A DNA stretch of 64,000 nucleotides from an uncultured Candidatus Saccharibacteria bacterium (GTDB taxonomy: Bacteria; Patescibacteriota; Saccharimonadia; Saccharimonadales; Saccharimonadaceae), in the NCBI GenBank assembly GCA_937859515.1, contig CALMAK010000005.1, positions 1 to 64,000 on the forward strand, written 5' to 3'. The notes beneath the pieces are model-generated. The model worked only from the letters and a program-made list of their open reading frames with translations, was not told where the DNA came from and searched no databases. Positions 55,741-57,765 of this stretch are shown piece after piece. The position numbers were made by a program, and so were the translations under genes. Position 1 is the stretch's first letter; each line of letters opens with the position of its first letter.

Positions 55741-57024
55741 CTATGCCTCTAAACGTCGCTCTTCACCCGTTGCGAGATTTTTTGCGCTGTAGACACCAGT
55801 CGCGACTTCATTCGCACCGACAAAGACAATTTCTTTTGCACCTTTTTTCTCGGCAGTCTTGATGAGTTTGTCAAATTTACGGCCACTAACATCTGATTCA
55901 ACAGACAACCCCTCTTTGCGAAGTTTCGCAGCAAGCTGAAACGTCTCAAGCGCCATATCACCGACTGCAGCGACATAGATATTGACGCCATCCATCAGAT
56001 CTGGCAAGAGATCGTGGCTACGCAGGAATAGTTCCGTCGTCGTCAGCCCAGGCGCAAAGCCAACAGCACTTGCGGGCTCAGCTCCAAACATACCGACCAG
56101 CCCATCATAGCGACCACCGCCGAACAGCGAGCGATTATTCTGAGGATCCGTGTCGAACACCTCAAATACTGTGCCGGTATAGTAATCCAGCCCTCGCATC
56201 AGCGTCACGTCAAAACGTGTCGATGAGATGCCAAGTGCTGCCAGCATCGCAAAAAGCTCACGTATCCGCGCGGCTGCATCACTTGCTGCGAGCCCCTCAG
56301 GTAGTGTCTCGATTGAATCAGCCGCAAATATCGCCTCAAGCTTCGCCTCGTTTTCATCTGTCCCTAAAATCTCGCGAGCCGACGCCCTAAACACGTCCGC
56401 CGGCAGCTTATTCTTGCGGTCAATCAGACGTACAAGCTGTTTACCTCGGGTCTCGTCCAGCCCAAGATACTGCCGTGTCATTGCTTCGATCAGCTCACGA
56501 CTGTTCACGCGAATCTCGTACATCGTTTCATCCGCGCCAAACGCCTTCATCAGCACGTCAGCCAGTTGTAATATTTCCGCTTCGGCTGCCACGCCATCCG
56601 CGCCAAACACGTCAGCATTCAACTGCCAAAACTCACGCTCACGCCCACGCTGCGGACGCTCATAGCGCATAAAATTAGCGATACTGAATAATCTTGCAGG
56701 ATACGCCAACTCTTGGCGGCGTGCCGCCACCATGCGACTAATACTTGGTGTCATCTCGGGACGAATCGCCACTTCGCGTCCACCTCGATCTGTGAATGCA
56801 TACGTTTGTTCATTCGCTAGCTCATCGCCACTCTTAGCGGCGTACACCTCCAGCGGCTCAAGAAGCGGCGCACCATACTCACAAAATCCAAAAGACTGCA
56901 TGGTCGCCTTCCACGTATCAAAAATATAATTCTGCACCGCTTTGTCTTCAGGATACCAGTCACGGGTGCCTTTGTATGGTTGAGGGGATAGTGTAGTCAT
57001 TGATGTCATTGTATCATTTTTCAT
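55741..57024 (-). CDS. hisS: Histidine--tRNA ligase
   Basis: HisRS (427 residues) is a class II synthetase. PYKGTRDWYPEDKA near the start, the TMRPEMT-like IRPEMTPSISR motif 2 region, the histidine-binding LMRGLDYYTG (about residue 265) and motif 3 FGGGRYDGL identify it. ATG 57024 has GGAG 7 bases upstream. A second possible start, ATG 57000, lies 7 bases after an internal extended -10 (TGATACAAT) and would give a leaderless mRNA. The leader upstream carries a histidine-rich mini-ORF and a terminator. Confidence 0.95.
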   Translation of the reverse strand: MKNDTMTSMTTLSPQPYKGTRDWYPEDKAVQNYIFDTWKATMQSFGFCEYGAPLLEPLEVYAAKSGDELANEQTYAFTDRGGREVAIRPEMTPSISRMVAARRQELAYPARLFSIANFMRYERPQRGREREFWQLNADVFGADGVAAEAEILQLADVLMKAFGADETMYEIRVNSRELIEAMTRQYLGLDETRGKQLVRLIDRKNKLPADVFRASAREILGTDENEAKLEAIFAADSIETLPEGLAASDAAARIRELFAMLAALGISSTRFDVTLMRGLDYYTGTVFEVFDTDPQNNRSLFGGGRYDGLVGMFGAEPASAVGFAPGLTTTELFLRSHDLLPDLMDGVNIYVAAVGDMALETFQLAAKLRKEGLSVESDVSGRKFDKLIKTAEKKGAKEIVFVGANEVATGVYSAKNLATGEERRLEA

Positions 57025-57043: not shown

Positions 57044-57074
57044 GTAAAACAAAACGCCGAAACGAGTTCGGCGT
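57044..57074 (-). terminator. Attenuator-type terminator in the hisS leader
   Basis: Perfect 8-bp stem ACGCCGAA/TTCGGCGT (57054-57061, 57067-57074) with a 5-base loop, followed by TTTGTTTTACT on the minus strand, 20 bases before the hisS ATG. Its 3' arm and loop (57055-57067) can instead pair with 57104-57116 (12 of 13 positions), inside the leader ORF. Confidence 0.8.
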
Positions 57075-57096
57075 GTATTCGAGACTATCAAGAAGA

Positions 57097-57150
57097 CTAC
57101 CGGACTCGGTTCGGCGACAAATGTGAATGATGCATCACGAAGGTAATCAT
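57097..57150 (-). CDS. Histidine-rich leader peptide of hisS
   Basis: This 17-codon ORF reads MITFVMHHSHLSPNRVR then TAG, with three His codons (CAT) among four codons. Its ATG lies 6 bases after an extended -10, so it is leaderless like many genes here; a second in-frame ATG directly precedes the His codons. It ends 22 bases before the terminator stem. This is the layout of ribosome-mediated attenuation, in which slow reading of His codons reports low charged tRNA-His. No T-box motif was found. Confidence 0.7.
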   Translation of the reverse strand: MITFVMHHSHLSPNRVR

Positions 57151-57156
57151 ATTTTT

Positions 57157-57165
57157 ATTGTAGCA
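57157..57165 (-). promoter_or_regulatory. Promoter of the hisS leader
   Basis: TGCTACAAT extended -10 (hexamer 57157-57162) 6 bases before the leader peptide ATG; no good -35. Confidence 0.6.
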
Positions 57166-57231: not shown

Positions 57232-57765
57232 CTATACCTTGTGCGTCAAGACGTTCCGGCGCGTCCACTCGTAGAGCATAATCCCGCTTGCCACCCCTAC
57301 ATTAACGCTGCGAGTACTACCGAATTGTTCGATTGCAACCATTTTTTGGCTAGCGGTGATCATTTCTGGTGAAAGTCCAGGACCTTCTGCGCCAAATACA
57401 AGCACACAGTCACGCGGAAGTTCTGCGTCGGATAGGTCTATTGCACCCGGCTGATTGTCGACGGCAATGATCGGCCGCCGGTCCATCGACTTCACAAACT
57501 CGTCGATACTGGCATGATAATACACATGTAAATATTTGTCAGTGGCCATCGCCCCACGCTTGTTCCACTGCCGTCGGCCAATGACATGCACGGCCGCCAC
57601 GTTAAAGGCATTGGCGTTACGTACGATAGTTCCCATATTAAAATCACGCGTCAGATTCTCAACCGCCACGTGCACAGTGTGACGTGTACGATCGAGATCA
57701 GCCACAATTGCCTCTTCACTGAGGCCTTTATAGTTATCAACGAGGTTACGCGTGTCTTCTAACAT
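57232..57765 (-). CDS. TrmH/SpoU-family RNA 2'-O-methyltransferase
   Basis: This 177-residue SPOUT methyltransferase has all three motifs: FNMGTIVRNANAFNV (motif 1), LVFGAEGPGLS (motif 2) and SVNVGVASGIMLYEW (motif 3), forming the knotted SAM site. It methylates a ribose in tRNA or rRNA; the target is not determined. ATG 57765 is preferred: TATAAT ends 7 bases upstream; the more upstream in-frame ATG (57831) would overlap the divergent gene. Confidence 0.9.
   Translation of the reverse strand: MLEDTRNLVDNYKGLSEEAIVADLDRTRHTVHVAVENLTRDFNMGTIVRNANAFNVAAVHVIGRRQWNKRGAMATDKYLHVYYHASIDEFVKSMDRRPIIAVDNQPGAIDLSDAELPRDCVLVFGAEGPGLSPEMITASQKMVAIEQFGSTRSVNVGVASGIMLYEWTRRNVLTHKV

Follow-up and report, generated by a model that had tools for sequence, protein, structure and literature searches.

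Proteobacteria are known to control histidine genes by leader-peptide attenuation, and the same has been proposed for Firmicutes, paralogues of hisS included (PMC2965389, PMC9413887). In bacilli, histidine leader peptides are predicted ahead of hisS* and hisZ (Naville and Gautheret 2010, PMC2965389), and the his leaders of Firmicutes show no similarity to those of Proteobacteria (PMC2965389). Gram-positive bacteria have candidate his attenuators as well as HisR, a repressor of the TrpR family, with attenuators present in groups that lack HisR (PMC9413887). Leaderless leader peptides have been described for S. meliloti trpL (PMC7298713) and, going by a work that another paper cites, for C. glutamicum ilvBNC (PMC4046766, reference 42). 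We found no report, in the open-access literature, of leader-peptide attenuation in Saccharibacteria/Patescibacteria or other candidate phyla. To our knowledge, little is understood of gene regulation in the candidate phyla radiation, whose genomes are thought to have lost most of it.

The locus described here precedes hisS in a 64-kb stretch of Saccharibacterial DNA, analysed at its full length and called the window below. Its features are the following:

57232-57756, minus strand: SpoU-type methylase gene, upstream of the unit on the same strand
57157-57165, minus strand: extended -10 of promoter P1, TGCTACAAT (TG-C-TACAAT), read from the sequence
57097-57150, minus strand: leaderless leader ORF of 17 codons, MITFVMHHSHLSPNRVR plus TAG, read from the sequence, with related leaders in 75 genomes
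57142-57148, minus strand: segment 1, GATTACC, a possible and tentative protector strand against GGTAGTC (57101-57095), picked out by eye
57121-57132, minus strand: CAT CAT TCA CAT, leader codons 7-10, read from the sequence
57110-57116, minus strand: segment 2a, CGCCGAA, a copy of the terminator 5' arm that pairs with the 3' arm (fold; swap test, 0/50,000)
57098-57109, minus strand: segment 2b, CCGAGTCCGGTA, pairing with the terminator 5' arm and loop (-13.3 kcal/mol; swap test, 0/50,000)
57054-57074, minus strand: intrinsic terminator hairpin, segments 3 and 4, read from the sequence (covariation, 0/500 shuffles)
57044-57053, minus strand: remainder of the U-tract, read from the sequence
57008-57016, minus strand: candidate promoter P2, TGATACAAT, 7 nt before the conserved hisS ATG at 57000, with like geometry at relatives' hisS with and without leader
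55741-57024, minus strand: hisS, histidyl-tRNA synthetase (Pfam PF13393, tRNA-synt_His, E 3.3e-46)

A sequence-only reading of this DNA had pointed to the extended -10 (TG-C-TACAAT, 57165-57157, minus strand), to a leaderless 17-codon ORF with CAT CAT TCA CAT (ATG at 57150, minus strand) and to a terminator hairpin with U-tract 22 bases past it (57074-57054, minus strand), all of which proved exact. The ORF begins 6 nt from the -10 and stops at 57099-57097. Codons 7, 8 and 10 are His codons, the last of them (57123-57121) being the one found in all recognised leaders. The terminator has 8 bp, ACGCCGAA-CTCGT-TTCGGCGT, and runs into TTTGTTTTAC. The same reading had proposed that a 13-base segment of the ORF pairs with the terminator loop and 3' arm; indeed CGCCGAACCGAGT (57116-57104) faces ACTCGTTTCGGCG (57067-57055) with one mismatch, and the resulting long hairpin of ORF tail with terminator is the minimum-energy fold of the free RNA, at -30.9 kcal/mol (z -2.98 against shuffles). 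Pairing of segment 1 with a GGTAGTC-type strand is visible by eye in the window and, with other bases, in close relatives; it went unrecognised in short-ORF variants. A scan for a -10 box 5-8 nt before an ATG, an ORF of 8-40 codons and a strong terminator within 90 nt gives the unit once in the window, and the model search described below gives one copy in the window's own genome. Rfam models recognise none of this: His_leader does not reach the gathering score anywhere in the window and gives nothing in the region even at E up to 5, the T-box model has no match in either, and no other known Rfam RNA family was found at the leader.

To follow the unit in other genomes, hisS was sought in 60 relatives and the upstream regions were compared in hisS orientation. 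Seven relatives from the window's family, whose hisS is 57-81% identical, share with the window a related leader, promoter, terminator and complementarity (examples of the relatives' peptides are MIYQSIHHSHLLPERVG and MVTYRTQHLHMSPERVG). In the one other genome available for the genus, the leader ORF has three synonymous changes, one Met-to-Ile replacement and TAA for TAG as its stop, with all His codons kept. Run against 394 genomes of the family, a covariance model built from those eight leaders (R1) matched 36 loci in 35 genomes, and inspection confirmed each locus as a leader. A wider model (R2), whose terminator pairs were shifted by one column, functioned as a sequence profile and matched 60 of 393 genomes of the order, in many families. 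All its matches were inspected: L126 in genome G031 was rejected as false, and the others were each read individually. Altogether, models built from the window's leader and its relatives recover the element from 75 genomes within the order (Saccharibacteria), a detectable copy being present in only about 9-15% of the sampled genomes. Carriers include the human oral TM7 taxon 352 (L169). In a phylum-wide sample of 380 genomes, nothing credible appeared outside the order, where the only two matches were marginal and near chance level (E 0.006 and 0.01). Among 80 named hisS loci, many of them from other candidate phyla, ten carry the element. Eight of those ten either bear the name Saccharibacteria, Saccharimonadia, Saccharimonadales or TM7 or match order genomes found by the models, and none of the ten belongs to another candidate phylum. 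The sequence-only reading had made its case depend on conservation of the His codons and terminator in close relatives, and had suggested aligning their leaders: both features are kept, across 75 genomes, and the alignment retains the short ORF, the last His codon, the leaderless geometry, the terminator and the complementarity between ORF and terminator.

The leaders have a common anatomy. A start could be assigned in 70 of them; in 52 of these, the -10 hexamer ends 6-7 nt before the start codon, and therefore the mRNA most likely begins at the AUG. What varies least is a His codon separated by two codons from a downstream CCG (rarely CCA, CCT or CTG), which copies the terminator 5' arm. Because the pattern used to anchor the leaders itself contains this spacing, the sequences were read by eye to confirm that it is constant; in L125, the stop codon stands immediately ahead of CCG. 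The last His codon is CAT in 65/70 and CAC in 5/70 of the leaders with assigned start. Ten leaders have a single His codon in the stretch examined, still three codons before the terminator-copying CCG. In most leaders the stop follows the last His codon by 24 or 15 bases, and segment 2b starts 12-18 nt after the first base of that codon. A ribosome with a codon in its A site has its 3' edge some 13-14 bases further on, as given by its footprint. The start of 2b thus lies about at the edge of a ribosome stalled at the last His codon.

Anatomy, conservation, co-variation and gene context, together with computed folds, lead us to read the unit, with high confidence, as a ribosome-mediated transcription attenuator that senses the charging of tRNA-His; stalling, read-through and polarity are presumed parts of this picture. 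Transcription would start at or beside the leader ATG, yielding a leaderless mRNA. With His-tRNA plentiful, the ribosome would reach the stop codon and cover segment 2, the 3' half of the ORF, so that the terminator hairpin 3:4 would form and transcription would end before hisS. Under a shortage of charged His-tRNA, the ribosome would stall in the His codons and leave segment 2 free to pair with the terminator: 2b would bind its 5' arm and loop, and 2a its 3' arm. The terminator would then fail to form, and hisS would be transcribed from P1, in addition to a basal supply from P2. It is because of the genes controlled that we infer that starvation raises read-through, and we presume that one of these paired states would arise in time to act as antiterminator. 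The proposed logic follows classical attenuation; the antiterminator strand here would lie within the ORF.

Folding agrees with part of this scheme. The RNA was masked as it would be by a ribosome and the remainder folded, with a cut-off of 0.5 for the probability of the terminator. With the ribosome at the stop codon, the terminator exceeds 0.5 in 75/75 leaders. Placed at the first codon of the His cluster, the ribosome brings this value below 0.5 in 63/65 of the leaders that have more than one such codon. Placed at the last one, it leaves the terminator as the preferred equilibrium fold in most leaders (median 0.95), and antitermination there would therefore have to be kinetic. Before the 3' arm is made, the RNA can hold 2b:3, at a mean of -12.7 kcal/mol as compared with -13.4 for the terminator. 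Since the ribosome-free RNA of the window folds into the long hairpin, a protector state would have to rely on the weak segment 1. This long 2:3-4 hairpin, next to the U-tract, might itself terminate transcription.

The tail of the ORF and the terminator have changed together. For each of 75 loci, we set the pairing of segment 2 to its own terminator against its pairing to swapped terminators, and statistics were drawn from 31 leaders less than 80% alike with 50,000 permutations. In those 31 leaders, segment 2 pairs with its own terminator at a mean of -26.9 kcal/mol, against -18.0 after swapping; for 2b with the 5' arm and loop alone the values are -12.1 and -7.5, and for 2a with the 3' arm -11.3 and -9.2, with 0/50,000 permutations as good in each case, a count that is no formal probability because the 80% filter removes relatedness only partly. 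L119, with the ORF CGCCAGCTCGTGCTG and the terminator CAGCACGACGCTGGCG, shows both altered together relative to the window, and in L119-L124 the ORF codons go from CCG to CCA along with the change in the terminator. The covarying stems that the sequence-only reading had suggested looking for were found in part: the terminator stem covaries (0/500 shuffles as high), whereas the 2a:4 helix, being too invariant in the family alignment, has no significant covariation there (143/500).

The genes behind the leader go well beyond hisS, and with retention of the device in 75 genomes they support the early proposal of a tRNA-charging attenuator. The model searches use the leader only, and gene content was not imposed except at the first eight loci, which were chosen by hisS. 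Behind 76 loci we find hisS (45), hisG (16), hisD (5), hisI (2), the unassigned PWxExxKC protein (12), AstE/AspA-like acylases (8), M15 dipeptidases (6) and S66 peptidases (2), among others. Two loci have histidine-racemase relatives, with histidine racemases as their best NCBIfam matches, well under the cut-offs. At seven of the 76 none of these queries matched, in two because the contig ends. The window's own genome lacks hisG and hisD; 32 of 35 leader-bearing genomes tested have no hisD (histidinol dehydrogenase), so that the switch is mainly of service to organisms dependent on acquiring histidine.

Several arrangements deserve mention. The PWxExxKC protein and the AstE/AspA-like acylase form a conserved pair behind the His leader in L062, L068, L089, L111, L115, L119, L121 and L124, with hisS sometimes next. 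Behind a His leader, the racemase-like domain is fused to a GNAT domain in L085 and to a VanX-like M15 dipeptidase in L086, which suggests salvage of D-histidine or histidine peptides. In L060, L090, L098 and L100, a HisG-like gene stands between leader and hisS; genome G049 (L090) has no hisD, and its HisG-like protein may therefore have another role.

At ten loci (L119-L121, L123, L124, L128, L136, L141, L142 and L145), a TrpR-family gene (PF01371; a HisR/YerC relative) provides the leader through its 3' end and is followed by a similar terminator and then by acylases, hisG-hisD or hisI-hisG. There, the last 12 or so codons make up the His leader, ..HHxHLSPARAD stop, ahead of the terminator, and most of these genes have TTGACA and an operator-like ACTTTACTTTGrTAA motif upstream. 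Control of the window's hisS by such a repressor was considered and dropped, because the window's genome (G000) has no PF01371 match; other members of the order have one. In L138, L139 and L144, a small ORF with conserved Trp codons overlaps the TrpR stop (TAATG; for example MHRNIILTSFGEQGAWLSSLYTWELI), a candidate tryptophan leader peptide. In L140, the HisR-like protein ends in ..DSEHHS and is followed by a GC-rich hairpin and a synthetase-like gene; this may be a divergent form of the His-leader device.

Downstream of the terminator, hisS may have two starts, one at 57024, led by a Shine-Dalgarno GGAG, and the conserved one at 57000 with its own -10. The P2 candidate (57016-56998, minus strand) sits within the 5' end of the long hisS frame and is leaderless, with its start at 57000 rather than 57024. 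A second hisS promoter, TTGCAA-17 bases-(TGn)NACAAT-7 bases-ATG, occurs in several family genomes with or without leader; in the window it lacks a good -35. A Shine-Dalgarno sequence with an upstream start, and hence an N-terminal extension, is found at 6/8 leader-bearing hisS loci as against 0/16 without leader. From P2 and this leader-linked start, the switch probably supplements basal expression with transcription that depends on starvation. P2 may bypass the control, and since it lies past the terminator, we infer rather than observe the share of hisS transcription that passes through the switch.

Other readings of the unit must be weighed. Polarity could be reversed, or independent of the ribosome, the long 2:3-4 hairpin of stalled or ribosome-free RNA being the stronger terminator and translation to the stop leading to a weaker one. 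This hairpin does adjoin the U-tract and is far more stable than 3:4, yet histidine starvation would then turn off hisS, hisG and hisD; moreover, a near-perfect, covarying 3:4 forms once segment 2 is masked, and 2a has none of the A-U pairs by which 3:4 connects to the U-tract. We consider this unlikely. That leader and terminator mainly yield a small RNA or peptide acting in trans, with hisS expressed from P2 alone, would fit the conserved leaderless P2 past the terminator and recalls S. meliloti trpL, whose leader RNA and peptide act in trans (PMC7298713). It becomes quite improbable in the face of the Shine-Dalgarno-led start, suited to a read-through mRNA and confined to leader-bearing loci in that 6/8 to 0/16 comparison, and of leaders before hisG, hisD and racemase genes, where no P2 is described.

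The ORF might also encode a small functional peptide, metal-binding for example, that has its own terminator and merely lies beside histidine genes. Conservation of HxH-x-x-P-x-R-x-G and the ORF's own promoter and terminator would suit such a product; it would nevertheless surprise us greatly, as the residues past the last His are those encoded by the terminator-pairing codons, which are altered along with the terminator (CCG to CCA, L119-L124), length and N-terminus vary, and the ORF may form the end of a repressor gene. As for an ordinary terminator of the SpoU methylase gene next to a chance ORF, this same-strand gene does end 67 bp ahead of the promoter; conservation in 75 genomes across several gene contexts and the co-evolution test refute the idea, and we give it practically no credence.

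The attenuator reading, which we retain, has consequences. A starvation switch conserved in Saccharibacteria, human oral ones included, would make histidine supply a signal that these cells track, while the leader offers functional guesses for the unknown genes behind it. Its leaderless form of about 110 nt is a minimal example of the attenuation mechanism. We are evenly divided over a broader proposal, that of an order-wide Saccharibacterial histidine-starvation regulon built on one compact leaderless attenuator, where in some genomes the C-terminal codons of a HisR-like gene are the sensor, one mRNA encoding both the repressor and its leader. Membership of that regulon would then mark acylases, peptidases and racemases without other assignment as enzymes of histidine salvage in organisms unable to make histidine.

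How does this device compare with its counterparts? A T-box is an RNA structure that reads tRNA without any leader ORF; the T-box riboswitch on hisS of Firmicutes has target gene and signal in common with the Saccharibacterial device, which uses a leader ORF instead. S. meliloti trpL and C. glutamicum ilvBNC share translation of the leader ORF without Shine-Dalgarno, for other amino acids and in other phyla. The predicted leaders of hisS* and hisZ in bacilli are likewise His leader-peptide attenuators on a histidyl-tRNA synthetase gene, in another phylum, and are likened here by description, not by sequence. As in Gram-positive bacteria, both types of control exist in Saccharibacteria, His attenuators and a TrpR-family gene beside histidine genes; by contrast, in some Saccharibacterial genomes the 3' end of the repressor-like gene is itself the attenuator leader. 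With the enterobacterial his operon attenuator, of the Rfam His_leader type, the device shares His codons in a short ORF, an intrinsic terminator, mutually exclusive pairing and histidine genes. It differs in being compact and leaderless, in having its antiterminator strand inside the ORF, where it copies a terminator arm, and in standing often on hisS in genomes without histidine biosynthesis. The kind is known; what is new, as judged from the open-access literature, is the lineage, the compact anatomy, the forms with a single His codon and the form made of a repressor tail.
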